Source: Aureimonas pseudogalii
Lineage (GTDB): Bacteria > Pseudomonadota > Alphaproteobacteria > Rhizobiales > Rhizobiaceae
Direction of reading: 5' to 3'
DNA length: 64,000 nt
Assembly (NCBI RefSeq): GCF_014196835.1
Contig: NZ_JACIEK010000008.1
Span: forward strand, 62,001-126,000
Below the pieces are notes generated by a model that saw only the letters and a program-made list of their open reading frames with translations, ran no database searches and had not been told where the DNA came from. A program made the position numbers and the translations under genes. This document shows, piece after piece, positions 17,811 to 34,658 of the stretch. Numbering within the stretch: the stretch's first letter is position 1; every line of letters begins with the position of its first letter.

Positions 17811-17953
17811 GTCGGTCCGGTTCCTAGATCAGAAGCGGAGGGCAGCGCAAATCCCGCGTCCGGGATCGTAAGGCCGACTGCCGTCATACGCGTGCAATGA
17901 GACTCGGTCATCTCCTCCCTTGCCAGACGGCTTCGGCATCGGCGGGGAGCGGC

Positions 17954-18790
17954 ATGATGAACCAGCTGAACGACACCCGGCATTTCCGCACGCTCTTTCT
18001 CTCCGACATCCATCTCGGATCGAAGGCGGCGCAGGCGGAGCTTCTCATCGAGTTTCTGAAGACGCACGACGCCGAGAAGATCTACCTCGTGGGCGACATC
18101 GTCGACGGCTGGCGGTTGCGGCGCTCCTGGTACTGGCCGCAGTCGCACAACGACGTGGTGCAGAAGCTCCTTCGCAAGGGGCGCAAGGGCACCGAGATCG
18201 TCTACGTTCCCGGCAATCACGACGAATTCCTGCGCGACTTCACCGGCCGCCATTTCGGCGGCATAGAGGTGAAGCTCAACGACATCCACGAGACCGCCAA
18301 CGGACGGCGCTTCCTGGTGATGCACGGCGACGAGTTCGACGTCGTGGTGCGCAACGCCCGCCTCATCGCCTATCTCGGCGACTGGGCCTACGACGCGGCG
18401 ATCGCCCTCAACCCCGTCTTCAACGCCATTCGTCGCCGCTTCGGCTTCGGCTACTGGTCGTTCTCGTCCTGGGCCAAGCTCAAGGTGAAGAACGCCGTGA
18501 GCTTCATCGGCGCCTTCGAGGCGGCGCTGGCGGCGGAAGCGGCGCGCCATGGCTGCGATGGCGTGATCTGCGGCCATATCCACCACGCGGCCATCTCGGA
18601 GCGCGAGGGGCTGCAATACGTCAACACCGGCGACTGGGTGGAAAGCTGCACGGCGATCGCCGAGCGCCACGATGGAAGCCTCGAGCTGATCCGGTGGACG
18701 CAGGCCTCGGCGGCGGTCAAGCTCGGCCCGCCCGCGGTTCCGGTGCGGCTCGTCTCGCCCGAGAGCGCCGCGGCGTCGGAGGCCGCGTGA
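17954..18790 (+). CDS. LpxH-like metallophosphoesterase
   Basis: A 278-residue calcineurin-like phosphoesterase with the full metal-site set: 'LFLSDIHLGS', 'GDIVDGW', 'YVPGNHDEF', 'MHGDEFD' and 'CGHIHHA'. This matches the UDP-2,3-diacylglucosamine diphosphatase-like (LpxH/LpxH2-type) family. True lipid A function is not certain, because most alphaproteobacteria use LpxI. The ATG has GGGGAGC upstream (17957 is the alternative). Its stop overlaps the next gene's ATG by one base, so they are coupled, suggesting a joint role in envelope glycolipid synthesis. Confidence 0.85.
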   Translation: MMNQLNDTRHFRTLFLSDIHLGSKAAQAELLIEFLKTHDAEKIYLVGDIVDGWRLRRSWYWPQSHNDVVQKLLRKGRKGTEIVYVPGNHDEFLRDFTGRHFGGIEVKLNDIHETANGRRFLVMHGDEFDVVVRNARLIAYLGDWAYDAAIALNPVFNAIRRRFGFGYWSFSSWAKLKVKNAVSFIGAFEAALAAEAARHGCDGVICGHIHHAAISEREGLQYVNTGDWVESCTAIAERHDGSLELIRWTQASAAVKLGPPAVPVRLVSPESAAASEAA

Positions 18791-19897: not shown

Positions 19898-21163
19898 ATG
19901 CCGAGTCCGATGTCCGCCGCCCCGTCTCCTTCCCGCGAAGACCGGCGCCTCTTCGAGCGCCGGATGGCCTTCGTCTTCGTCGGCTCGTTCATCACGCTCG
20001 GCGTCTTCAGTCCGTTCTTTCCCGTATGGCTGGCCTTCGAGGGGCTCGATGCCGACGAGATCGGCCTGATCCTCGGGCTGCAGATCGCTCTGCGCGTCGT
20101 CGTCTGCCCGCTCGTGCTGCGCTGGGCCGATCGCTCGCCGGAGCGCGCCGACGTGCTCGTCGCCATCTCGCTCGCCTCGCTGGCAGCCGCCGGCCTGTTC
20201 TCGTTCGTAGAAGGCTGGACCGCGATTCTGGCGGCGACGCTTCTCCTCGCCTGCGTCTGGTCGCCGGTCATTCCGCTCAGCGATGCCGTGGCGCTGGCCG
20301 GCGTCCGGCGTCTCGCGGTCGATTACGGCCGTACGCGGCTCTGGGGCTCCGTCGCCTTCATCGTCGCCAACGTCGCGGGCGGCCTCGTCATCGCCCGGCT
20401 CGGCGAGAGCTGGTTCCCAGCGCTTCTCTTCGCGGCCTTCGCGATCGCCGCCGCGGCGACGCTGCGCGTGCCCCGTTTCGGGCGACCGCGGCAAGCCTCG
20501 CCCGCGCCCCTGCCGCCGATGAGCGAGCCCTGGCTGCCGGCACCGAGCGTCTTCGGCCGGTTTCGGCGTCTCGCACCCGCGCCCGACCTGCGCAGCCTCC
20601 TGCCGCTGCTCCTGGCGATCGGTCTCGTGCAGTCGAGCCATGCGCTCCTGAACGGCTTCGGCTCGCTGCAATGGACCCGTCTTGGCTACTCGCCGACCGA
20701 GATTGGGATCTTTTGGGCCGTCGGCGTCGTCGCAGAGGTCGTGCTGTTCCGGTTTGCCGCTGGGCCCATGCGGCGCTTCGGCGTGCGCGGATTTCTGCTC
20801 GTCTCCGGCCTCGCCTCGGTGCTGCGATGGTCGCTTCTCACCCTCGATCTCGGCTTCGCAGGGTTCCTCCTGCTACAGACCACCCACGCGCTGACCTTCG
20901 CCGGCACCCATCTGGCGCTCCAGACGCTGATCGGCTCCTCCGTTGCGGAACATCGGCTGGGCGCGGCCCAGGGCACGGCTTTCGCGCTGCAGACGGGGCT
21001 GATGGCCGCCACCACGTTCGGCGGTGGACTTCTCTACTCGGCCTTCGGCGCCGACGCCTTCTTCGCCATGGCGGCGCTCGCCGGCGCGGGCGTTCTCCTG
21101 GCGCTTCTCGGTCCTCAGCCCCAGAGGGCCGATGTCGGCGGGGCGACGAGCGAGCCCTCGTAG
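19898..21163 (+). CDS. MFS transporter, 3-phenylpropionate-permease-like
   Basis: A 421-residue permease with about 12 hydrophobic helices. 'VSPVIPLSDA'-like text after helix 4 ('WSPVIPLSDAVAL') and 'DYGRTRLWGSVAFI' are hallmarks of the HcaT/MFS_1-like group. The substrate is unknown. The last 49 bases overlap the 3' end of the convergent dipeptide epimerase gene. An alternative start lies at 19910. Confidence 0.82.
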   Translation: MPSPMSAAPSPSREDRRLFERRMAFVFVGSFITLGVFSPFFPVWLAFEGLDADEIGLILGLQIALRVVVCPLVLRWADRSPERADVLVAISLASLAAAGLFSFVEGWTAILAATLLLACVWSPVIPLSDAVALAGVRRLAVDYGRTRLWGSVAFIVANVAGGLVIARLGESWFPALLFAAFAIAAAATLRVPRFGRPRQASPAPLPPMSEPWLPAPSVFGRFRRLAPAPDLRSLLPLLLAIGLVQSSHALLNGFGSLQWTRLGYSPTEIGIFWAVGVVAEVVLFRFAAGPMRRFGVRGFLLVSGLASVLRWSLLTLDLGFAGFLLLQTTHALTFAGTHLALQTLIGSSVAEHRLGAAQGTAFALQTGLMAATTFGGGLLYSAFGADAFFAMAALAGAGVLLALLGPQPQRADVGGATSEPS

Positions 21164-22101
21164 ACGAGGCCGTCCGGCCGGTCGGTCCGCAGCAGCAGCG
21201 GACCGTCGAGATCGACGATTTCCGCGTCTTGCGCGAGGAGAAGCGCCGGCGCCATGGCCAGCGACGTGCCGACCATGCAGCCCACCATCACGCCGAACCC
21301 ATGGGCGCGCGCCTCTGCAAGAAAGCGCAGCCCTTCGGTCAGCCCGCCGGTCTTGTCGAGCTTGAGGTTCACGTAGTCGTAGCGCCCGACGAGGGCGCCG
21401 AGATCGTCCGCGCCGTGGACGGATTCGTCGGCACAGACCGGCACCGGGCGCGGCATGCGGGCGAGGATGGCGTCCTGGCCCGCGGGAAGCGGCTGTTCGA
21501 CGACCCAGGCGCCGCAGGCCGCCGCCGCCAGCATGTTCTCCCGGATCGTCTCCTCGCTCCATGCTTCGTTCGCGTCGATGATCAGGCGTGCGTCCGGCGC
21601 GGCTTCGCGCACCGCCCGCATGCGGGCGATGTCGTCCGCGCCGCGGCCGACCTTGACCTTCAGCACGCTGCGCCCGCTCGCGGCGCGCGTCGCCTCCGCC
21701 ATCTCGGCCGGCGTTCCCAGCGAGATCGTGAACGCGGTGGTGACACGATGCAGGGCGGCGAGCCCCGCGAGATCGGCGGCCCCGCGACCGCCCAGCTTGG
21801 CGTCGAGATCCCAGAGTGCGCAATCGGCCGCGTTGCGCGCCGCGCCGGCGGGCAGGGCCGTTTGCAGCGTTGCGCGGTCGAGGCCGGCTTCGAGCGCCGG
21901 CCGCAGCGCTTCCAGGGCGGCGACCACGGACTCGACGCTCTCGCCGTAGCGCGCATAGGGAACGCATTCTCCGCGGCCGGCATGGTTCTCGTCCTCGATC
22001 CGACAAACCACCACCGCCGCCTCGGTTTTCGACCCGCGAGCGATCGTGAATTGTGCCGCGAGGGGGAACCGCTCCACTGTGACCGAAACACGACGTTCCA
22101 T
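21115..22101 (-). CDS. dgcA: Enolase-superfamily dipeptide/N-acetyl-glutamate epimerase
   Basis: The 328-residue protein has the muconate-lactonizing layout: a capping domain, then a barrel with 'LKVKVG' (catalytic Lys), metal ligands in 'DANEAW', 'VVEQPL' and 'CADES', and a second Lys in 'NLKLDKTGG'. This is the signature of L-Ala-D/L-Glu epimerases and of DgcA N-acetyl-D-glutamate racemase of rhizobia. Which substrate applies is not decided. The usual dgcN (DUF1611) partner is not adjacent. The ATG at 22101 has AAGGA upstream; a TTG at 22119 is unlikely. Confidence 0.87.
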   Translation of the reverse strand: MERRVSVTVERFPLAAQFTIARGSKTEAAVVVCRIEDENHAGRGECVPYARYGESVESVVAALEALRPALEAGLDRATLQTALPAGAARNAADCALWDLDAKLGGRGAADLAGLAALHRVTTAFTISLGTPAEMAEATRAASGRSVLKVKVGRGADDIARMRAVREAAPDARLIIDANEAWSEETIRENMLAAAACGAWVVEQPLPAGQDAILARMPRPVPVCADESVHGADDLGALVGRYDYVNLKLDKTGGLTEGLRFLAEARAHGFGVMVGCMVGTSLAMAPALLLAQDAEIVDLDGPLLLRTDRPDGLVYEGSLVAPPTSALWG

Positions 22102-22259
22102 TTTAATCCTTAATTCCAAGTCAATGTCTGATTGCGAGTGCGAAGGCGACCGCTAAGTCTCTCGTGCGAGATCAAGTTCTGATCCGAGTCCCGCTCGTCG
22201 TGGGCGGCTCCAAGTTCGATACGCTCGCCATACCTCAAACCCGGATCCGATTCGACAGC

Positions 22260-23447
22260 ATGCTGGACATCCCGAAGGACAAGCAAGGATCGGAACGGAA
22301 GGGTCCCGCCGGATCCACCGAACCGACCGTCGAAGCGGAGAAGGGCAAGGGCGGTGTCGTCCTGCATCTGCGCGGCGACTGGCTCGCCCGCACCATCGGG
22401 TCCGTCGAGGACGTGATGGACGAGACCCGCAAGACCGATCTCGGCAAGTCGGTGACGATGGATTGCGGCGAGATCGGCCGGCTGGACACGTCGGGCGCCT
22501 TTCTCATCGAGCGCCTCGCCCGCACTCTGACCGAGAAGGGCGCGAAGGTTTCCTTCGAGGGAGCCGACAAGGACGCGACACTGTTCGACGCGGTGCGCAA
22601 GGCGCTCGACGTCAAGCGTCCCGAGCCCGTCGTCCGAAAGTCCAACCCCGTCACCGACGGTCTCGCCTCGATCGGCGAGGCGGTCTTCGCGGTGGGCCGC
22701 GAGCTTCTGACCGGGGTCAACGTCATCGGCGCGGCGCTCTACGGCGCCGGGCGCCGCATGACCGGGCAGACGCAGGTTCGCCCCGCCGCCATCGTCAGCC
22801 AGATGGACCGCATGGGCGTTCGCGCCGTGCCGATCATCGCGCTGATGAGCTTCCTCATCGGCGCCGTGATCGCGCAGCAGGGTGCCTTCCAGCTGCGCAA
22901 TTTCGGCGCCGAGATCTTCGTGGTCGATCTCGTCGGCATCCTGCAGCTGCGCGAGATCGGCGTGCTGCTCACGGCGATCATGATCGCCGGCCGTTCGGGA
23001 AGCGCCATCACCGCCGAGATCGGCTCGATGAAGATGCGCGAGGAGGTCGACGCGCTTCAGGTGATCGGCCTGAACCCGATCGGCGTGCTCGTCTTCCCGC
23101 GGCTTTTGGCGCTCATCGTCGTGCTGCCGCTGCTCGCCTTCATCGCCGACATCGCCGGCCTCGTCGGCGCCATCACGGTCAGCTGGATCTATTCCGGCAT
23201 CACGCCCGACGCCTTCATCACGCGCCTGCGCGGGGCGATCGACATCGGCACGATCTTCGCCGGCCTCCTGAAGGCACCGTTCATGGCGATCCTCATCGGC
23301 GTCGTCGCCTCCATGGAGGGCATGAAGGTCGGCGGCAGCGCCGAGAGCCTCGGCACGCACGTGACCGCCTCCGTCGTGAAGTCGATCTTCCTCGTCATCC
23401 TCCTCGATGCGGTCTTCGCCATCTTCTATGCCGCGATCGGATACTGA
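22260..23447 (+). CDS. mlaE: Mla-type lipid ABC permease with N-terminal STAS domain (MlaB-MlaE fusion)
   Basis: Permease of a lipid-transporting ABC system between inner and outer membrane. An N-terminal STAS domain (about residues 25-110: 'VVLHLRGDWL', 'DCGEIGRLDTSGAFLIERLA') resembles free-standing MlaB. The MlaE permease follows, with 'MDRMGVRAVPI', 'LQLREIGVLLTAIMIAGRSG' and 'ITAEIGSMKMREEVDALQVIG'. The start is uncertain: ATG 22260 (395 residues) is used, with GTG 22164 the longest alternative. The MlaF gene begins two bases after the stop. Confidence 0.9.
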   Translation: MLDIPKDKQGSERKGPAGSTEPTVEAEKGKGGVVLHLRGDWLARTIGSVEDVMDETRKTDLGKSVTMDCGEIGRLDTSGAFLIERLARTLTEKGAKVSFEGADKDATLFDAVRKALDVKRPEPVVRKSNPVTDGLASIGEAVFAVGRELLTGVNVIGAALYGAGRRMTGQTQVRPAAIVSQMDRMGVRAVPIIALMSFLIGAVIAQQGAFQLRNFGAEIFVVDLVGILQLREIGVLLTAIMIAGRSGSAITAEIGSMKMREEVDALQVIGLNPIGVLVFPRLLALIVVLPLLAFIADIAGLVGAITVSWIYSGITPDAFITRLRGAIDIGTIFAGLLKAPFMAILIGVVASMEGMKVGGSAESLGTHVTASVVKSIFLVILLDAVFAIFYAAIGY

Positions 23448-23448
23448 C

Positions 23449-24267
23449 ATGAGCAAGGCCAAGGGCGCGGCGTCGGACGACGACGTCATCATCCGCGCGA
23501 CCGACGTCACCGTGCGGTTCGGCTCGAAGACGATTCTCGAGAACCTGTCGCTGGACGTGCGGCGCGGCGAGATCCTCGGCTTCGTCGGCGCCTCCGGCAC
23601 CGGCAAGTCGGTGCTTCTGCGCACGATCCTGGGGCTGAACCAGAAGCAGGGCGGCACGATCGAGGTCTTCGGCACCGACTACGAGCGCGCCAACGATGCC
23701 GATCGCCTCGCCGTGGAGCAGCGCTGGGGCGTGCTGTTCCAACAAGGGGCGCTGTTCTCGTCGCTCACCGTGCTCGAGAACATCCAGGTGCCGATGCGCG
23801 AGTATCTCGACATCTCGCCGGGACTGATGGAGGAACTCGCCCGGCTGAAGATCGATCTCGTTGGCCTCGCGCCCGACGCCGCCGAGAAGTTTCCCTCCGA
23901 ACTCTCGGGCGGCATGATCAAGCGCGCAGCGCTGGCGCGTGCGCTCTCGCTCGATCCCGACATCGTCTTTCTGGACGAGCCGACCTCCGGCCTCGATCCG
24001 ATCGGTGCCGCCGATTTCGACGAACTCATCATGACGCTGCGCGACACGCTGGGGCTCACCGTCTACATGGTGACGCACGACCTCGACTCGCTGTTCATGG
24101 CCTGCGATCGCATCGCGGTGCTCGGACAGAAGAAGGTTCTGGTCGAGGGTCCCCTCCAAACCATGCTCGAGAACGACGACCCCTGGGTCCGTTCCTACTT
24201 CCACGGCAAACGGGCTCGCACCGTCGTGTCGAAGGAAGACAATCCGTATTACGACGAGGATCAGTGA
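23449..24267 (+). CDS. mlaF: Mla-type lipid ABC transporter ATPase
   Basis: Energises the MlaE permease. The 272-residue ATPase has Walker A 'GASGTGKS' (from about residue 47), signature 'LSGGMIKRAALARAL', Walker B 'DIVFLDEPTSGLDP' and switch His 'VTHDLDS'. The C-terminal extension after residue 245 fits MlaF, where it contacts the STAS subunit or the second MlaF. It begins two bases past the mlaE stop and meets the MlaD start at its own stop. Confidence 0.94.
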   Translation: MSKAKGAASDDDVIIRATDVTVRFGSKTILENLSLDVRRGEILGFVGASGTGKSVLLRTILGLNQKQGGTIEVFGTDYERANDADRLAVEQRWGVLFQQGALFSSLTVLENIQVPMREYLDISPGLMEELARLKIDLVGLAPDAAEKFPSELSGGMIKRAALARALSLDPDIVFLDEPTSGLDPIGAADFDELIMTLRDTLGLTVYMVTHDLDSLFMACDRIAVLGQKKVLVEGPLQTMLENDDPWVRSYFHGKRARTVVSKEDNPYYDEDQ

Positions 24268-25943
24268 TGGAAACCAAGGCTAACTACGTCCTCGTCGGGA
24301 TCTTCACGCTCGTCGTGCTCGCGCTGAGCTTCGGCTTCGTCTACTGGTCCGCCAACGTCTCGGACAAGGACGCGCGCACCGCGCTGCTGATCCGCATCGA
24401 GGGCTCCGTGTCGGGCCTCAGCCAGGGCAGCCAGGTTCTGTTCAACGGCCTCAACGTCGGCACGGTGACCAATCTGCGCATCGACCCCAACAATCCGCGG
24501 GTCGTCATCGCGACGACGCAGGTCGACCGCACAACGCCGATCACCACTTCGACCACCGCCACGATCGGCTTCCAGGGCCTGACCGGCCTCGGCTTCATCG
24601 GTCTCACCGGCGGCAACGTCAACGATCGCAACATCATCCAGTCGGCGCTCGATCAGGGCGCGACGCCCATCATCAACGCCAACCCGTCCGACGTCACTGA
24701 CATCCTGGCGACGGCACGCGACATCGCCGACCGTGCCAACAACATTCTCGGCGAGTTCGAGAGCATCGTGCAGGCGATCGGCCCCTCCGTGCGCACCACC
24801 GCCGAAAACGTTGCCGCGACATCCAGCAACGTCAAGACCTTCACCGACAGCTTGGCCTCCAACTCCGACCAGATCGACGACTTCCTCGCCAGTCTCGGCC
24901 GGCTTGCGACGAGCGCCAACAACGTGGCCGAGCGGCTGCCGCCGATCCTCGACGAGGCCAGCCGCTTCGTCTCCGCGCTCAACGTGAACGCCATCAACCA
25001 ATCGATCGAGAACGTCGCCTCGATCACCCAGTCGGTGCGCGGCCAGACCGACAACATCGTGGCCGCCGTCGATTCGATCTCCAACGCCGCCCGCAGCTTC
25101 GGATCGGTGGGTGACGCCATCCGGCAGAACACGCCGAGCATCAACGACTTCCTCGGCCGCCTCGGGCCGATCTCCGAGACGGCATCGAGCGTCGCGACCC
25201 GACTCGATTCGACGCTCGGAGACGTCAACGAGATTACGGCGGCGGTTGATCCGGCGCAGGTGCGCAACGTGATCGGCAACGTCAACGGCTTCACCGACGC
25301 GCTGAACGGCCAGTCGGACCGCATCGGCTCGGTCGTCGCGGGTGCGGATACGGTTCTCGCCACCCTGAACGGCGCGCTCACCGGGCTCGACGGCACGCGA
25401 ACCCGCGTCGACCAGATCCTCACGGGCATCGACCCGCAGGACATTTCGCGCGCCGTGAACAACGTCTCCTCGGCGACGACCAACATCGCCAGCGCCGCCG
25501 ACTCGGTGCGGGGCGTGGCCGACGACATCGGCCAGCGCCGCGACGACATCAACGCGATCATCACCAACACGCAGGACACCACCGCCAACCTCCGAACGGC
25601 ATCGGCCAAGGTGCAGACCCTGATCGACTCCGCCAACGGTCTCGTCAACAGCCCGGACGGGCAGGGCCTCGCCGCGCAGGCACGCACGACCCTCGCCACG
25701 ATCCAGCAGACGGCGGAATCCATCCGCGTCGCCATCGGGCCGATCTCCGCGAATCTCCAGGGCTTTACGGGACAGGGCCTGCAGGAAGTGCGTAATCTCG
25801 TACGCGAGACGACGCGTGCCGTGTCGCGCATCGAAAGCGCCGTGACCGACCTGTCGGCCAATCCGAGCCGAATCCTGTTCGGCGGCGAAGGCGGCGCGGG
25901 CGGCGGCGAGGTTCGCACCTTCGACGGTCGGACCCGGCGATAG
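24267..25943 (+). CDS. mlaD: MCE/MlaD-family substrate-binding protein with long helical tail
   Basis: A periplasmic lipid-binding subunit anchored by one N-terminal helix (about 7-28), followed by one MCE domain ('IRIEGSVSGLSQGSQVLFNGLNVGTV' region, about 38-115). About 430 residues of Asn/Ser/Thr-rich heptad-like sequence follow ('NVNEITAAVD', 'VNNVSSATTNIASAADSVRG'). E. coli MlaD is about 180 residues, so this is the long alphaproteobacterial type. The tail may form a helical stalk or tube, as in PqiB/YebT. The ATG overlaps the mlaF stop (a GTG lies at 24264). Confidence 0.9.
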   Translation: METKANYVLVGIFTLVVLALSFGFVYWSANVSDKDARTALLIRIEGSVSGLSQGSQVLFNGLNVGTVTNLRIDPNNPRVVIATTQVDRTTPITTSTTATIGFQGLTGLGFIGLTGGNVNDRNIIQSALDQGATPIINANPSDVTDILATARDIADRANNILGEFESIVQAIGPSVRTTAENVAATSSNVKTFTDSLASNSDQIDDFLASLGRLATSANNVAERLPPILDEASRFVSALNVNAINQSIENVASITQSVRGQTDNIVAAVDSISNAARSFGSVGDAIRQNTPSINDFLGRLGPISETASSVATRLDSTLGDVNEITAAVDPAQVRNVIGNVNGFTDALNGQSDRIGSVVAGADTVLATLNGALTGLDGTRTRVDQILTGIDPQDISRAVNNVSSATTNIASAADSVRGVADDIGQRRDDINAIITNTQDTTANLRTASAKVQTLIDSANGLVNSPDGQGLAAQARTTLATIQQTAESIRVAIGPISANLQGFTGQGLQEVRNLVRETTRAVSRIESAVTDLSANPSRILFGGEGGAGGGEVRTFDGRTRR

Positions 25944-26105
25944 CCAAGACTTCTGCCACGTCGCTCGGGAGCGATGGCGTATGGGCGACGCGGCAGAACA
26001 GATAAAGCCGAAGGCGAAGCTGGAATGCGGCATCGTCATGGAATTGAAAAGACCCGACACCTCGCGAGATCGGGGGTCGGAAACGCGTTTCGAGTCGAGG
26101 GCAAG

Positions 26106-26702
26106 ATGGTGGTCAGAGCTGCAACGAGACTGACGATGCTGGCGCTGGCGGGATGGACCCTGTCGGCCTGCGCGTCCCTGAAGGAGGCGCCGGCGACCTT
26201 CGAGCTGTCGGCACCGCCGCCGGCGAGCCAGCGCGCTTCCGCGACGCGGGCGCAGATCCTCATCCCGGAGCCGACGGCGACGAAGGCGCTCGACAGCCAG
26301 CAGATCGTCGTGAAGCCGACGCCCCAGACGATCGAGAGCCTCGGCGCCAGCCAGTGGAGCGATCGCCTGCCGCGGCTGGTCCAGCTTCGCACGCTACAGG
26401 CTTTCCAGAACACCGGGCGCGTCGGCGCGGTCGGCGTGCCCGGGCAGGGCCTCGCCATCGACTATCAGGTCGTGATGGAACTGCGCCGGTTCGAGGTGGC
26501 GTTCGAACCGGGAGCCGCGGCGGTGGTGGAGATCGCAGTCAAGGCGCTGAACGACAAGACCGGCGTCGTGCGGGACACCCGCATCTTCCGCGCGGTGGTT
26601 CCGGTGGCTGGCGCCGGAAGTCCGGCCTACGTCGCCGCACTCGACACGGCGTTCGGCCAGGTCGCCGACGAGATCGTGGCCTGGACGATCCGTCTGCTCT
26701 GA
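26106..26702 (+). CDS. ABC transport auxiliary lipoprotein (PqiC-like)
   Basis: The 198-residue protein has a signal peptide with lipobox LSAC (Cys22) and the ABC_trans_aux/PqiC fold signature 'IVVKPTPQTIESLGASQWSD' followed by 'RLPRLVQLRTLQAFQ'. Such lipoproteins accompany MCE systems at the outer membrane. The ATG at 26106 is chosen because it places the signal peptide at the N-terminus. 162 bp separate it from mlaD, and a terminator follows. Confidence 0.88.
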   Translation: MVVRAATRLTMLALAGWTLSACASLKEAPATFELSAPPPASQRASATRAQILIPEPTATKALDSQQIVVKPTPQTIESLGASQWSDRLPRLVQLRTLQAFQNTGRVGAVGVPGQGLAIDYQVVMELRRFEVAFEPGAAAVVEIAVKALNDKTGVVRDTRIFRAVVPVAGAGSPAYVAALDTAFGQVADEIVAWTIRLL

Positions 26703-27479: not shown

Positions 27480-30400
27480 TTATTGGTCGAAGCGTCCCGA
27501 GGCGTGCGCGAGCATCGTGTAGACCTTACCGGTGTCGGACGTCAGATAGCTCTTGCTGCGGGTGTTGTCGGGATCCTTGCGCGAGGCGTCCTGCAGCAGC
27601 ATTTCGAAGTCCGCGATGTAGCGATCGACGGCGCTGCGGAAGTCCGTGTCGCGCTGGTACTTACGGCGGATCTCGTCGAACGTCTGCTGACCCTTCATCG
27701 TGTAGAGCCGGCGGGTGAAGACGTTGCGCTCGCCGTTGCGATAGCGATCCCACAGCTCCACCGAGACGTTGTGATCGATCGCCCGTGCGATGTCGACGGA
27801 CAGCGAGTTGAGGGAGTCGACCACGTGGGCCTGCGTCCGCTCGGCAGGCCGGGCCGGCTCGGCGGAAGCCGCCGGCTGGGATGCCTCGTCGCCGTCCTCG
27901 TCCTGCGACGCACGCCGCAGGAGATCCGACACCCAGCCGCCACCTTGACGATTGGCCTCATCAACCGGCGCCGTGACGCTCGCTGCCGGGCGGCGTGGCT
28001 CGGCAGGCGCAGCCGGGCGGAGCGGCGACAGATCGCCGGCGCGCGGCGCGGCCGTCGGCGTGACGCGCCCCTGCGAACCCGCGTCGGCGCGGGGCGCCTC
28101 GAAGCTCGGCCCCCGCGTGTCGCGGGCTAGATTGCCGTCGACGATGAACTGCCCGGCCGAGCGGTCCTCGATCTCGTCCGCTGCCGGCTCTGCCTCCTGA
28201 CGAAGCGCCGCGGCACGCGGCGGTGCTGATGCAACCGGCCGGGACGCGGTGAGCGGGCGGGGTGACGGGCCGACGCTGTCGGGGGCACGAACGTCGAAGC
28301 CACGGCCCGACTGCGAGACGATCTCGCTCAACTCGCGCAGGGCGCGGATCTGGTCGGACACGGCGCGACGCATGGCTTTCGTGCTCTCGCGGGTCTCGTC
28401 CGGCAGCTCGAACACGCCGCGGCGGATCTCGCCCCGTGCGTTCTCCAGCTCCTGCCGGATTTCGCCGGCGGCCCGCTTCATCTCGGCGGTGGCGCCGCCG
28501 AACCGCTCGGTGGCTTCCTCCATCACGGCGCGGATCATCGCGCGGACCTGCTCCGCGGCATCCTGCGAGCGCCGCTCGGTCTCTTCGAGCTGCCGCTCGG
28601 CCTCGCCCAGCGACGCACCGAGGTCACCGGTGATCGTCTCGGCCACGGCATGGGACCGCTTCTCGGCATCGCCGAACAGACGCTCCACCACCGTCTCGAA
28701 CGAGCCGAGCATCGCACCGATCTCGTCGGAACGCTGTGTCAGACCCGTCGCCAGACTCTGCAGACCCTCGCGGCGATCCTCGAGCGTGATCTGCAGGTTC
28801 TGCTGGGCCGAGTCGAGCAGGGCGCCGGCTTCCGTCAGCATCTGCCCATGCTCGGCGAACTGCGAGGTCAGCGCTGCGATGCGATCCATCGCCGCGACGG
28901 TCGCGCCGTCCATGCGGCCAACCTGTTGAGCGAATCGATCGGACGAGGCTGCGATGTCGCTGCCGACGCGATCGGCTTCGGTGCGGAAGCGCTCGCCGGT
29001 TTCCGCCAGTGTGCCCTCGGCCTGTCCGAGCTGACGCGACGATTCGTCGAGAAGTTCGCGAAGCGACCGGTTGCTGAGGCCGAGGCGATCGACGAGATCG
29101 CCGACGTCGCGGACCAGTTCACCGCGCGCATCCGAGATCGAGGCGACGGCGCCCTGCGTGCGCTGTTCCAGCGCCGCCAGAAGATCGGCCGACGAGGCGC
29201 CGAGCTGCTCGACGGTCTCCTCGGCGCGGCGAACGAAGGCCGCGACGATGCTGGCATTCTCGTCGCGCAGGCGATCGGCGACGTTCTGCGAGCTGTCTTC
29301 GAGCGCGCGCACGGCGTTCGCACCGCTCTCCGAGAGACGATCCACCAGCGGACGGGTCTCGTCGTCGATGAGCCGGGCGAGCTCGGCATTGCGGCTGGCG
29401 AGAAGCTCGGCCAGATCGCGTGTACGGCCTTCCATGTCGCGGCCGATATGATCGGCGCGCTCGGACAGAGTCTGGTCAGAAATCGCGACGCGATCGGCGA
29501 TTTCACTGCCGAACTGCGTAGTCGAGTCGGCGAACTGCTCGCGAATGCGATCGGCCTCGATGCGGATGGCGGTCGCCATGCCGGACAGACGAGCCGAGAT
29601 GTCGGCGCCTTCCTGAAGAAGCGTCTCGCGAGCCTGCTCGGCCTCCTGTCGAATCGAGCCCGCAATCTGCAGCGAGTCGCCGCGCAGGTTTCCGGCGACA
29701 GTGCCGACCTCGTTGCGGATGAGCTGCGTCGCGTCTTCGATCTCGGTACGGAGCGCAGACGCTGCCTCGGACAGATCGCCCCGGATGTCGCCGGTCGTGC
29801 CTTCGAGCGCGATCGACAGCTGGGCGGACAGACCGGACAGTTCCGCGGCGAAACGGGTCGCCCGCTCGTCGAGCGACGACGAGGAGCGATCGGTCTCCCC
29901 GTGGATCAGCGCGGCGGCCTCCTGCACGCGGCCCGAGAAGGCCTCGGCGTCGCCGAGAAGGCGCTTGCGCGCGGCCTCGGCCTGCTCGCTCATCGACAGC
30001 GCGACGGCATCGAGCTCTTCGACGAGGCGGACGCTCTCGGCAGTCAGGCGCTCGCGCGTCTCGCCGGTGCTGGCCTGGACGCGGTCCGTTGCGGTGGCGA
30101 CCTCTTCGATCATCCGCTGCACATGCGCGCCAAGCTCATTCTGCACGCGGTCGGTCTCGCCGCGCATCGCGGCCGCGACGTTTCCGACTTCCGCCGCGAT
30201 GCGGCTGGCGTCGTCGAGGATCAGGCGGCGCGAAGCCTCGCCGGCGTCGCGCAGATGCGAGCTGGCGTTGGTGAACTCGCCGACGATGGCCGCCGACTGC
30301 TCGGAGACGTCGTGGCGGATGAGATCGGCGTGCTCGCGGATCTGGATCGCAGCGGAGGCGACCTCCTCGCGGATCTGACGGGCATCGGTGGAGAACTGTT

Positions 30401-33400
30401 CGCGCGTGCGGTCTCCGACGAGGCGCAGCCGCTCGGCCGCAGCCTCGACGTCGCTCGACAGGCTGGACGCCTGATCGGCGACGATGCGGCGAGCCGCCTC
30501 GGCGTCCTGGCGAAGGCGCTCGGCCATGTCCTCCAGGCCACCGGCAAATTCGCCGGCGACGAGGGCAAGGCGCTCGCGGGCGGCCTCGGCTTCTGTCCGC
30601 ATGGCAAGCGAGGCGCCGCCGATCTGCGTCGTGAAGGCGTCGCCTTCGAGGGCCAGCGACTCGCGGATCTCCTGCGCGTCGCCGCGCATGCGGTCGGCAA
30701 CCTCTGCGACGTTACGGCCGAGCGTCTCTGCCTCCGCTGCGAAGCGACCGCGAGCTTCCTCGGTCATGGCGCGGATGGTGTCCGCGCTCGATGCGATGCC
30801 TTCGGCAATGCGGGCGCTCTCGCCCGTGAGTTCGGTGCGTGCGGTCTCGGAGGTCTCCTGCACGGAGCGGGCGACGGCCTGAATGCGCTCTTCGAACTTC
30901 GCGACTTCCTCGGCAAAGCGCGACTGCGCTTCCTCGGAGGAGGCGCGGAAGACGTTGCCGAGTTCGCCGATCACGATGGCGATCTTCTGGGTCTCGGTTT
31001 CGAGACCGATGCGGGCGCGGTCCGCCTCCTGGCCCATCGTGGCCGTGGCGGCGACGATCGTGTCGCGCAGCGTGTCGGCGATCAGCGAGGTTCGGCCCGA
31101 GAGCGTCCGCTCCACGTTGGCGAGGCCGCGTTCGAGATTGGCGGACATGGCGTCCGTACGCTCTTCGACGGCGAGCGACAGGGTGGCGGTTCCCGTCTCC
31201 AGCGCGGCGACGATCTCGTCGCGCTTGGCCTCCAGCGTCGTGGAGACGTTGCCGGCGCTCTGCTCCAGCACGCGGCGGACGTCGTCTGCGCGATCGCCGA
31301 GCGTGGCGGCCAGCGAACTCGCGACATCCTCGATGGCGGCCGTGAGGTTCTCGCGGCGCTCGTCCATCGCCACCGCAAGCTGACCGTCGGAGTCCGACAA
31401 TGACTGGCGCAGCGCTTCGATGCGCGTGTCCAGCGTCTCGACGATCGCAGCGTTTCCACGATCCAGTTCCGAGGCGAGGCGGTCGGTGCGGTCCGTCAGA
31501 TCGCCAAGGAGGGAGGTCTGCGACGTGTCGACGATGCTGCGCATCGAGGTGACGCGCTCGTCGAGACCTTCGAGCATCGCGGTGCGGGCATGCTCGACGC
31601 TTTCGCGAAGCGAGACGCCGCGACCGTCGAGGCCCTGGATCAGCAGCGTCAGGGCGTTTTCGACCGCCGTGAGGATGTTGCTGGCGTTCTGGTCGATCTC
31701 GCGACCGAACATGCCGGTACGCGCATCGAGGCTGGCGACGAAGTCGGTCTTGGACGTATCGATCGCGGACTGCAGATCGACGATCCGCGCGGCGAGATTG
31801 TCGGCGACGAGCTGCACCGAACGCTCGAAGGTGGTTTCGATGCCGGCGGTCTGTGTCTCCAGCCGCGACAGGAACTCCGACCGGCGGTCGTCGCCGGTGA
31901 GGAGGGCCGTCTCGAGGCGGGCGATCACGTCGTCGCCGACGCGCGCCGTGTAGGCTTCCAGCGAGTCCGACAGGCGCTCGCCGCTCGAGCGCATGAACGC
32001 CTCGCTAGCGGAGATGCGATCGGCGAGACCCGTGGTCAGCGCGGTGGAGCGCTCGTCCAGGCCTTCGAGGAAGCGACCCGTGCGGTCGGCCATGAGAGTG
32101 TCGATCTCACCCTGGCGGCGGTCGAGGTCGGAGGAGAGGGTGCGCGAATGATCGTCGAGCGCGACGTTGATCGCGGCGCTGCGCTCCGAGAGCAGCGTGG
32201 TGATGCGCGAGAGGCGGTCGTCGAGATCGGTGCCGACCGATGTCTGGCTCTCGGCGAGGAGGCGGTGGATCCGATCGGCGCGTTCGTCCAAGGCCCGCTG
32301 CAGATCGGCCGAGCGCGAATCGACGCCGGCGAAGAGGCGACCGTCGGTGCCTTCGAGGACCGTCTCGATGCGCGAGACGTTCGTCTCGATCGCCTGCGTG
32401 ATCGCCTGACCGCGCTCTTCGAGGCTGGCCAGAAGCGACTGCTGGGCGAAGGCGAGGGACGTGTCGATGTCGGCCGAGCGATCGCTCAGAACGGCGCCGA
32501 GCGAGCCGATATGGGACTCGAAGGTCGAGTGGAGCCCGGCCGCCTGGCGCTTGAGCGCGGCATCGACGGACTGGACCGCACCTTCCGCCGTCCGGTTGAC
32601 CGAGGCATGCCCCTCAGCGAAGACGCGGCCGATCTCGCCGGTCTTCTCCGACAGCACCTTGGCGAATTCGCTGGTGCGCTGACCCAGCGCCTCTGCGATC
32701 CGGTCGGTGGAGCGATCGATGGCGGCGGCGCGGCCTTCGATGGTGGTGACGAGTGTCGCGCCCTTGCCGGACAGCGTTTCTTCCAGCGATGCGAGGCGCT
32801 GGTCGAACTGGAGCAGCAACGAGGCGTTGCGATCGTCGAGCAGCCCGGTCGCGCGTTCGATGCGCTCGCCGAAGCCTTCGTCCATCCGACGCAGGAAGCC
32901 GTCGGTCGCCGACGACATCATCGACACCCGCTCGTCGACGCTCGCCGCGATCCGGCCAGCGAGGGCCTCCCCGTCGGACAGAAGACGCGTGGACCGCGCA
33001 TCGAGCGTCTCGGCCAGCGTGCGGTCGAAGACTTCGGCATCGTTCGACAGGCGATCGGACCGCTCGGAGAGGAGCTGCAGAACACGGGCATTCGAGGCCG
33101 CGAGGCGATCGCCCGCTTCCGTGCCCACGAATTCGACCTGCGCCACCAATTCGTCGGAGCGGGTTCGAAGCTCCGCGGTCTGGCGTTCCAAGGCCTTGGC
33201 CAGCGCCGCGCCGGTCTTCTGCAGGCGCAACGTGGTTTCATCCGCGGTGCGTGAAATCTGCTCCACCACGATGGCCGTGTTGCCGGCGAGAGCCGCATCG
33301 ACCTGCGCGCTGCGCTCGTCGAACAGCGTCATCAGAGAGCGCGAGCGATCGTCGTAGGAGCGCGACAGCGCTTCGCCACGTTCGTCGAGGATGCGGTGGA

Positions 33401-34658
33401 AGCGCTGAGAGGCGTCCTCGACCTGTGCGAGAATGCGCTGCGACGCGCTGTCGACGTCGCCGACCAGACGGTCGTGCGAACCGACGACGGAGGTACGCAG
33501 ACGCTCGGCATGGGACAGCATCGCCTCGCGCTCGCTGGCGAGGTCGGCGACCAGCGAACGGATCTTCACTTCGTTGTCGGCGTAGGCTCGCTCGAGCGAC
33601 GACACCTCCGAATGCACGATGCCTTCGAGCTCGCTCATGCGCGACAGCGCGCGCTCGACGCCTTCGCCGAGCGAGGCGACCTCACGGCGAATGGCCTGAC
33701 CGACGCTGGCGACGCGCTCCGAGGCCACCGTCTCCGGCTCGGCAAGGCGAAGTGCCACCTCGGCCATCGAACGGCTCATCAAGCGCAGATCCTGCGACCG
33801 GCGCATCATCATCGCGAAGGCGACGATGAGGAGTGCGGGAAGCACGACCGCGGCTGCCACGATGGCGAGCATTAACGCACTGCCGCCTTCGCTGCCGAGA
33901 GGCGCGAAGCTGCCATTGTTGAAGAAGGCTGCGGCGGCGAGGCCCGACAGCACCACCCAGGCGCCGGCCGCCGCGAAGCCCGCGACCAGATGACGACCGG
34001 ACGCGCGGCGGGAAAGGAGGGCATCCGCCATGACGCTCGCGGACCGCTTCTCGTCGTTGGCGACACTCGTCTTGAAATCACGAGGGCCGGCGGGCTGTGT
34101 CGCCGACGGGGCGCGGGTCGGCTGCGGTGCCTCGGTAAACACCGGCTGGCGGGACGCCGGCTCGCCGAGCGTCGAACGCGGGCGACGGGCCTCTTCGGCG
34201 GCGCTGGCGGCAGCGGCACCACCGGCCACGGCGACGACCTCGGGGGCCGCGTGCAGCGAAGGCTCCTCGGTGGTCCGGTCGTCCGGCGCCTCGCTCGCAA
34301 CGGCGGCGATCAGTTCTTCTTCGCCGAGGAAGAAGTCATCCGTCGGCTCGGCTTCGGCCACCGGCTCGTCGACGCCTTCGGAGGCAGACGACGTCTCGTC
34401 TATGGGGACTTCGGGAGCGGCGGCTTCCTGACGGAATGCGCTGGTGGCAGCCTCGACGGTTCGATCGAACTCCGAGAAGGCAAAGTCGATCGACACGTCG
34501 TCGGCCTTCAGCGTCTCCGCCTCGACATGGCCTTGCGCCGTGCCCGAAACGTTGGCTCCGCCATCCGTCGGCGTCTCGAAGTCGGCGCCCTGAAGCGTCG
34601 CCTCGAGTTCCCGCATCGCTTCTTCGGAAAGCTGTTCGGCCGTCTTGATCTTCGACAT
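27480..34658 (-). CDS. gpr: Giant growth-pole ring protein homologue (GPR/RgsE)
   Basis: A 2,392-residue protein. An acidic, Ala/Pro-rich cytoplasmic N-terminus (1-220) is followed by two membrane helices (about 223-245 and 261-284). Some 1,800 residues of alpha-helical repeats follow, built from units such as 'LDERADRIHRLLAES' and 'RADAEAARRIVADQA'-like text, read by domain tools as apolipoprotein A/E or kinesin-like. A Pro-rich linker leads to a conserved C-terminal domain (about 2275-2392: 'DHNVSVELWDRYRNGERNVF', 'TSDTGKVYTMLAHASGRFDQ'). This architecture is that of Growth Pole Ring protein of Agrobacterium (about 2,100 residues) and RgsE of Sinorhizobium, which organise unipolar growth. 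The gene is unbroken and its start gives a sensible N-terminus. Confidence 0.9.
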   Translation of the reverse strand: MSKIKTAEQLSEEAMRELEATLQGADFETPTDGGANVSGTAQGHVEAETLKADDVSIDFAFSEFDRTVEAATSAFRQEAAAPEVPIDETSSASEGVDEPVAEAEPTDDFFLGEEELIAAVASEAPDDRTTEEPSLHAAPEVVAVAGGAAAASAAEEARRPRSTLGEPASRQPVFTEAPQPTRAPSATQPAGPRDFKTSVANDEKRSASVMADALLSRRASGRHLVAGFAAAGAWVVLSGLAAAAFFNNGSFAPLGSEGGSALMLAIVAAAVVLPALLIVAFAMMMRRSQDLRLMSRSMAEVALRLAEPETVASERVASVGQAIRREVASLGEGVERALSRMSELEGIVHSEVSSLERAYADNEVKIRSLVADLASEREAMLSHAERLRTSVVGSHDRLVGDVDSASQRILAQVEDASQRFHRILDERGEALSRSYDDRSRSLMTLFDERSAQVDAALAGNTAIVVEQISRTADETTLRLQKTGAALAKALERQTAELRTRSDELVAQVEFVGTEAGDRLAASNARVLQLLSERSDRLSNDAEVFDRTLAETLDARSTRLLSDGEALAGRIAASVDERVSMMSSATDGFLRRMDEGFGERIERATGLLDDRNASLLLQFDQRLASLEETLSGKGATLVTTIEGRAAAIDRSTDRIAEALGQRTSEFAKVLSEKTGEIGRVFAEGHASVNRTAEGAVQSVDAALKRQAAGLHSTFESHIGSLGAVLSDRSADIDTSLAFAQQSLLASLEERGQAITQAIETNVSRIETVLEGTDGRLFAGVDSRSADLQRALDERADRIHRLLAESQTSVGTDLDDRLSRITTLLSERSAAINVALDDHSRTLSSDLDRRQGEIDTLMADRTGRFLEGLDERSTALTTGLADRISASEAFMRSSGERLSDSLEAYTARVGDDVIARLETALLTGDDRRSEFLSRLETQTAGIETTFERSVQLVADNLAARIVDLQSAIDTSKTDFVASLDARTGMFGREIDQNASNILTAVENALTLLIQGLDGRGVSLRESVEHARTAMLEGLDERVTSMRSIVDTSQTSLLGDLTDRTDRLASELDRGNAAIVETLDTRIEALRQSLSDSDGQLAVAMDERRENLTAAIEDVASSLAATLGDRADDVRRVLEQSAGNVSTTLEAKRDEIVAALETGTATLSLAVEERTDAMSANLERGLANVERTLSGRTSLIADTLRDTIVAATATMGQEADRARIGLETETQKIAIVIGELGNVFRASSEEAQSRFAEEVAKFEERIQAVARSVQETSETARTELTGESARIAEGIASSADTIRAMTEEARGRFAAEAETLGRNVAEVADRMRGDAQEIRESLALEGDAFTTQIGGASLAMRTEAEAARERLALVAGEFAGGLEDMAERLRQDAEAARRIVADQASSLSSDVEAAAERLRLVGDRTREQFSTDARQIREEVASAAIQIREHADLIRHDVSEQSAAIVGEFTNASSHLRDAGEASRRLILDDASRIAAEVGNVAAAMRGETDRVQNELGAHVQRMIEEVATATDRVQASTGETRERLTAESVRLVEELDAVALSMSEQAEAARKRLLGDAEAFSGRVQEAAALIHGETDRSSSSLDERATRFAAELSGLSAQLSIALEGTTGDIRGDLSEAASALRTEIEDATQLIRNEVGTVAGNLRGDSLQIAGSIRQEAEQARETLLQEGADISARLSGMATAIRIEADRIREQFADSTTQFGSEIADRVAISDQTLSERADHIGRDMEGRTRDLAELLASRNAELARLIDDETRPLVDRLSESGANAVRALEDSSQNVADRLRDENASIVAAFVRRAEETVEQLGASSADLLAALEQRTQGAVASISDARGELVRDVGDLVDRLGLSNRSLRELLDESSRQLGQAEGTLAETGERFRTEADRVGSDIAASSDRFAQQVGRMDGATVAAMDRIAALTSQFAEHGQMLTEAGALLDSAQQNLQITLEDRREGLQSLATGLTQRSDEIGAMLGSFETVVERLFGDAEKRSHAVAETITGDLGASLGEAERQLEETERRSQDAAEQVRAMIRAVMEEATERFGGATAEMKRAAGEIRQELENARGEIRRGVFELPDETRESTKAMRRAVSDQIRALRELSEIVSQSGRGFDVRAPDSVGPSPRPLTASRPVASAPPRAAALRQEAEPAADEIEDRSAGQFIVDGNLARDTRGPSFEAPRADAGSQGRVTPTAAPRAGDLSPLRPAAPAEPRRPAASVTAPVDEANRQGGGWVSDLLRRASQDEDGDEASQPAASAEPARPAERTQAHVVDSLNSLSVDIARAIDHNVSVELWDRYRNGERNVFTRRLYTMKGQQTFDEIRRKYQRDTDFRSAVDRYIADFEMLLQDASRKDPDNTRSKSYLTSDTGKVYTMLAHASGRFDQ

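Follow-up and report, generated by a model that had tools for sequence, protein, structure and literature searches.

The closest described counterpart of the system studied here is MpcEFDA of Brucella abortus, which is reported to comprise a permease that carries a STAS domain at its N-terminus, a 331-amino-acid (aa) MCE protein with a helical extension, and a PqiC-like lipoprotein (PMC12436622, EMBO J 2025). According to the same source, no MlaC is detectable in B. abortus, mpc mutants are deoxycholate-sensitive and show altered vesicle lipids, a pull-down is cited for a stable complex, and AlphaFold3 models span the periplasm. Mpc is described there as conserved in Hyphomicrobiales and variable in length, with longer versions in Agrobacterium and Sinorhizobium. 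This variation is attributed to periplasm width or angle, and the passages of the article on this subject (its appendix lies outside them) refer to a repeating coiled-coil but mention neither units nor steps. Here, we analyze an operon of this type in a 64,000-nucleotide stretch of Aureimonas pseudogalii DNA (contig NZ_JACIEK010000008.1, positions 62,001 to 126,000, forward strand; hereafter the window), whose MCE protein carries an oversized helical tail and belongs to a largely stepped series of lengths.

Judging by its gene content, which matches, the operon is a member of the already known Mpc system. As in Brucella, a STAS-MlaE permease, an MlaF-type ATPase, a protein with a single MCE domain and a helical tail, and a PqiC-like lipoprotein follow one another in that order, in a genome without MlaC. 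The mixture of Mla and Pqi features pointed out by the initial annotation, together with the absence of MlaC and the helical extension, is the one reported for Brucella Mpc (PMC12436622). The difference lies in the MCE protein, which is ~228 residues longer in the window and belongs to a family in which whole repeat units account for most of the change in length. Veillonella parvula MlaD is similar in having a single MCE domain and a helical extension without MlaA or MlaC, but it ends in a C-terminal beta-barrel, and its 23.5-nm model fits a 24.2-nm periplasm (PMC10665443). By contrast, the window tail is strandless in a low-confidence model, has a lipoprotein in its operon, and is too long for one pass. 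Escherichia coli PqiABC shares an octameric PqiC-type lipoprotein collar and a helical needle, but PqiB has three MCE domains where the window protein has one MlaD stretch, and PqiA is without an ATPase domain and not MlaE-type, unlike the MlaE-type membrane partner here (PMC10897342). The same paper places the Xanthomonas lipoprotein XCC0632 beside mlaFE and an MCE gene. Mycobacterial Mce1 likewise combines an ABC transporter, an MCE ring, and a needle of kink-separated helical repeats, reaching ~225 Å into a ~200 Å periplasm; however, it is a heterohexamer of six different MCE proteins (PMC9882608), against one MCE match in the source genome. The window protein scored 94.1 bits against TIGR00996, under the cut-off of 140.5.

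The length of the tail was compared among relatives. Among the best 80 of at least 562 loci, the nearest found were in Aureimonas (L001-L006, permease identity 74-78%), with A. ureilytica (L001) nearest on the tree. The four-gene order was conserved in 78 of the 80, the exceptions (L022 and L048) being cut by contig ends, and with these two dropped and the window included, 79 complete MCE proteins could be compared. Measured from their shared start, the lengths fell into classes of 330-331 (8 proteins), 456-461 (41), 532 (4), 555-560 (12), 648-654 (6), 744-746 (4), 841 (2), 939 (1), and 1033 aa (1). Within the Aurantimonadaceae-type set of 24 proteins (the window and 23 loci), length classes differ mostly by whole 96-residue units: 171 of 225 pairwise gaps of at least 20 aa (pairs that are not independent) were exact multiples of 96, 36 more were 7 off, and 18 fit neither. 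On a tree built from the permease, ATPase, and MCE N-terminus, in which 7 of 29 inner branches were weakly supported, length class changed at least eight times among these 24 proteins. We found no description of length steps in MCE tails in the literature searched (preprints and supplements lay outside the search), and the passages on MCE architectures in PMC5561183 contain none.

Repeat units were visible in the tails themselves. A hidden Markov model of the unit matched the window tail in degenerate form at residues 157-234, 242-322, 324-401, and 398-458, at 20-43 bits each. The MCE protein of Jiella LLJ827 (L020) contains five tandem units with 54-81% residue identity and 62-79% base identity, and these are therefore not recent copies. 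The same divergence makes an assembly artefact unlikely for L020, the one locus checked in this respect. The sequence of PDB 13hr, a structure of a lipoprotein with an Mce/MlaD protein, gives a complementary view. Its 312-aa MCE protein was the top sequence match to the window MCE protein (E 4.8e-31), and its lipoprotein was the second-best match to the window lipoprotein (E 3.5e-17). Chain 13hr_I aligned to residues 2-170 and 405-542 and is without ~235 middle residues of the window protein. Because only the two ends align, the base and tip are common to both and the middle is additional.

Outside Aurantimonadaceae, the steps were of other sizes: 126 aa (457 vs. 330), 68 + 7 (532 vs. 457), and 196 (654 vs. 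457). We also assembled a broader set of 40 loci, drawn from 29 of the order's families and each adjoining an ABC_trans_aux match. An MCE open reading frame (ORF) was present in 39 of these (169-907 aa, median 457), 38 of which had a permease profile match covering the STAS region. Of the 38 tails scored, 16 repeated most strongly at an internal offset of 61, and others at 53, 82, 85, 89, or 106. In locus L094, the MCE protein is 708 aa long and repeats strongly at internal offsets 53/106; in L118, it is 907 aa long and does so at 106/212. In these other families, tails are lengthened by units of different sizes. Three loci of the broader set stood apart: L103 was without an MCE ORF, L096 had a short one of 169 aa, and L117 had a 550-aa MCE ORF adjoining its ABC_trans_aux match but neither MlaE nor MlaF within the retrieved stretch, and is perhaps a Pqi-like locus.

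The heptad frame persisted over unit positions 10-96 in the 12 units counted, which come from four proteins. Heptad position a was occupied by Ile, Leu, Val, Met, or Phe (ILVMF) in 83% of cases and by Ala in 17%, positions d and e were mixed (35-38% ILVMF), and positions b and g held most of the Asn. The frame shifts at a VDP motif (96 = 13 x 7 + 5), and an AlphaFold2 model of three tandem units placed helices at 7-98, 103-195, and 199-287, interrupted at the VDP motifs. We read this as one unit forming one predicted helical rod of ~92 residues (~14 nm), with a joint between rods. A hairpin within the 96-residue unit is possible but was unsupported, as the model consists of three unbroken helices of 89-93 residues, at a predicted local distance difference test score (pLDDT) of ~50. 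The coil phase was also considered as a proof that the coil is continuous; 96/27 = 3.56 preserves helical phase, but a divisor of this size exists for most lengths, so the argument carries little weight.

The window tail measures 421-422 residues and contains no Tyr, Trp, Cys, Met, or His. The initial annotation had described some 430 residues after a single MCE domain, heptad-like and rich in Asn and Thr at regular spacing. Both the oversized tail (~420 residues) and its heptad pattern were borne out: the tail is amphipathic, with a windowed hydrophobic period of 3.52 and a power of 5.5, compared to 2.3 at the 99th percentile of shuffles. Its richness in Asn (7.8%) and Thr (9.5%) also held against the other three operon proteins (1.0-2.2% and 5.5-7.0%), and the MCE part of the same protein was equally rich (8.0% and 12.4%). 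However, the regular spacing did not hold, as autocorrelation in the tail was no stronger than in shuffles, which matched its maximum in 20% of cases for Asn, 76% for Thr, and 48% for both combined. The regular feature of the tail is the hydrophobic heptad, not Asn/Thr.

An AlphaFold2 monomer model was built from an alignment of 71 rows (the window protein and 70 of 78 locus proteins, eight longer than 700 aa being excluded). It shows a single long helix at the N-terminus plus a beta domain, with pLDDT of 73-94 per ten-residue block up to residue 140, followed by a helix at 143-199 and further helices. No beta strand appeared in the model after residue 140, where pLDDT was mostly <50. That the tail is helical rather than disordered can be upheld in part: DSSP assigned mostly helix, not coil, but at such pLDDT there is no confident arrangement and disorder is possible. 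Foldseek matched this model best to Mce1 and MlaD chains (8fed_B at the top, TM-scores low). The Mce1 alignments had a root-mean-square deviation of ~50 Å or more, so they indicate kinship and not the fold of the tail.

Profile searches covered the whole source genome (5.0 Mb, 53 contigs, 99.99% complete) and returned no match to MlaC and none to MlaA, whereas the same searches were positive in E. coli and Caulobacter, two of the 14 genomes used as controls. The earlier observation that no mlaC is seen in the operon thus extends to the genome, where a copy elsewhere would have spoken against an MlaC-free route. MCE, MlaE, and ABC_trans_aux gave one match each, every one at the Mpc operon, which is therefore the sole MCE system found in this genome. 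In the operon itself, an MlaB-like STAS domain forms one protein with MlaE. Of 297 genomes surveyed from this order, 75 carried MlaC (0 of 13 for the source's own family), 228 ABC_trans_aux, and 38 MlaA, all 38 together with MlaC. MlaC occurred with the lipoprotein in 24 genomes and alone in 51, the lipoprotein alone in 204, and neither in 18 (Fisher P = 8e-24, kinship ignored). Because of the 24 genomes holding both, the MlaC route and the lipoprotein route are largely, but not strictly, alternative.

How could such tails fit between two membranes? The ~400 helical residues of the window tail would extend ~600 Å at 1.5 Å per residue, or ~400 Å at a looser ~1 Å per residue (a rise estimated from the Mce1 needle pitch and module size), and the straight length of L020 would be ~1300 Å. 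Published periplasm widths are ~200 Å in Mycobacterium smegmatis (PMC9882608), 242 Å in Veillonella (PMC10665443), and ~300 Å in Brucella (PMC12436622). Assuming that the tail is mostly helical and that these bacteria have periplasms of ordinary width, only 8 of the 79 proteins (330-331 aa) are short enough for one pass, as are 8 of 39 in the broader set (tails of 176-230 residues, the 34-residue tail of L096 excluded). Given a ~600 Å tail, periplasms of 200-300 Å, and lengths of up to 1033 aa, a rigid single-pass bridge is unlikely in most members, whose tails should instead fold back, be jointed, or hang slack. The suggestion that a helical bridge replaces the soluble MlaC shuttle therefore survives in modified form: the absence of MlaC and the published Mpc bridge model agree with it, and MpcD would take over the work of MlaC, but a simple straight helix would be about twice the length needed.

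The operon probably encodes an Mpc-type MCE lipid transporter whose tail is folded or jointed between fixed ends. In such a machine, STAS-MlaE and MlaF would form an inner-membrane ABC transporter with the MCE-domain ring on top, and the helical tails would reach a ring of the PqiC-like lipoprotein at the outer membrane, so that lipid could cross between the membranes without an MlaA-MlaC shuttle. The tail may consist of helical rods joined at Pro-containing breaks, folding back or zigzagging between a base beside the MCE ring and, at the other end, a conserved tip in contact with the lipoprotein. We infer the hexamer, the direction of transport, the substrate, and lipid conduction by the tail, and by analogy with the Brucella relative, a stable complex, an effect on vesicle lipids, and a hydrophobic channel may be expected here as well. 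More tentatively, and at a little under even odds, the Mpc needle of most Hyphomicrobiales may be a jointed or fold-back chain of rods, gained or lost between fixed ends, rather than a ruler-like tube. If true, the lipid path tolerates large changes in contour length, which the published straight-channel model leaves unexplained.

Several observations weigh against this explanation. Tail pLDDT was 31-58 per ten-residue block and mostly <50 (334 of 559 residues in the whole protein were <50), and that of the three-unit model was ~50. The unit counts of sister genes differ by odd numbers, contrary to a scheme of one reversal per unit; we rejected strict reversal as a simple rule because the sisters L017/L018 and L021/L023 differ by one or three units, and an odd difference would place the tip on the wrong side. 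The two routes also overlap, since 8 of the 24 genomes that combine MlaC with the lipoprotein carry MlaA as well. Low confidence in both models would suit a slack tether, in which a long, flexible helical chain would tie the MCE ring to the lipoprotein with no closed channel while lipids pass otherwise. The hydrophobic stripe is narrow, given the composition of positions d and e, and the changes of length class in the set of 24 close relatives (at least eight, a one-unit difference between sisters among them) fit such a tether because exact length would not matter. Yet position a was hydrophobic or Ala in all 12 units counted, the Brucella complex is reported as stable in a pull-down with a hydrophobic lumen in its model (PMC12436622), and Mce1, a relative, has a needle that forms a closed tunnel (PMC9882608). 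We regard a slack tether as unlikely.

A rigid straight tube, with six parallel tails forming a continuous single-pass channel as modelled for the 331-aa Brucella protein, conflicts with the ~600 Å (or, with the looser rise, ~400 Å) estimated for the tail against published periplasms of 200-300 Å. In addition, 71 of the 79 proteins, the window's included, exceed the Brucella type. The published AlphaFold3 model gives MpcD a length of ~250 Å and a hydrophobic lumen (PMC12436622), the persistent heptad frame with its ILVMF or Ala at position a would suit a tube, and the shortest members have the right length, but we find this explanation quite improbable. A canonical Mla pathway, in which MlaC escaped recognition and MlaD is decorated, could account for the Mla-like permease, ATPase, and MCE domain. 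It is hardly credible given no MlaC or MlaA match in a nearly complete genome, searches that succeeded in E. coli and Caulobacter, and a PqiC-like lipoprotein in the operon.

Features of the Mpc-type operon and its neighbours, in window coordinates
Feature	Position	Strand	Details
mpcE-type permease, STAS (MlaB-like) N-terminal + MlaE	22260..23447	+	395 aa; likely start ATG 22260
mpcF-type ABC ATPase (MlaF-like)	23449..24267	+	272 aa from ATG 23449; longer ORF from 23407
mpcD-type MCE protein	24267..25943	+	558 aa from ATG 24267; transmembrane helix, one MCE domain, ~420-residue helical tail
Transmembrane helix + MCE domain	24264..24674	+	residues 1-137 of 559-aa ORF; AlphaFold2
Helical heptad-patterned tail	24675..25943	+	ORF residues 138-559; repeat-unit model, hydrophobic period, AlphaFold2 secondary structure
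mpcA-type PqiC-like lipoprotein (ABC_trans_aux)	25974..26702	+	PF03886, E 1e-29
Calcineurin-like phosphoesterase, upstream	17897..18790	+	Metallophos_2, E 1.7e-12
N-acetyl-D-Glu racemase DgcA	21115..22119	-	NF042940, E 2.4e-138; divergent from operon
Coiled-coil-like protein	27480..34658	-	2392 aa; converges on operon

The permease ORF is open from GTG 22164 (22164-23447), and both Pfam domains lie on it, confirming the proposed STAS-MlaE fusion: STAS matches modestly at residues 57-135 (24.2 bits, cut-off 22.6), MlaE matches strongly at residues 210-420 (E 1.7e-69, 234 bits), and TIGR00056 scores barely above its cut-off. The ATPase matches Pfam ABC_tran (E 8.2e-30), with MlaF PRK11831 as its top NCBIfam match, under that model's cut-off, and its gene shares one base with the MCE gene (TGATG). 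A single Pfam MlaD/MCE domain covers residues 47-117 of the 559-aa MCE ORF (E 7.7e-14). The last gene of the operon was correctly called a PqiC-like lipoprotein, as indicated by its ABC_trans_aux match and an LSAC lipobox at 26160-26171, although the initial annotation spanned only 22260-25943 and excluded this gene while naming its product. Its start codon is uncertain (e.g., ATG 25974, 26025, or 26106), and its relatives in PDB are 2iqi, 13hr, and 13hq. Among the neighbours, a DgcA-like ORF recurs in 78 of the 80 relatives' loci, a conserved neighbourhood. The 2392-aa protein contains Apolipoprotein A1/A4/E repeats (PF01442, E 2.2e-46, seven stretches), and an ORF resembling its last 110 residues occurs at 51 of the 80 loci, where the flanks in hand are short.

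MCE bridges are a leading candidate for the still debated passage of phospholipids across the periplasm. The Mpc family offers a natural length series, from 330 to 1033 aa and largely stepped, between the same two anchors. This series provides a direct test among measured-length tubes, folded needles, and slack tethers, and the straight channel proposed on the basis of its shortest member may not hold for most of the order.

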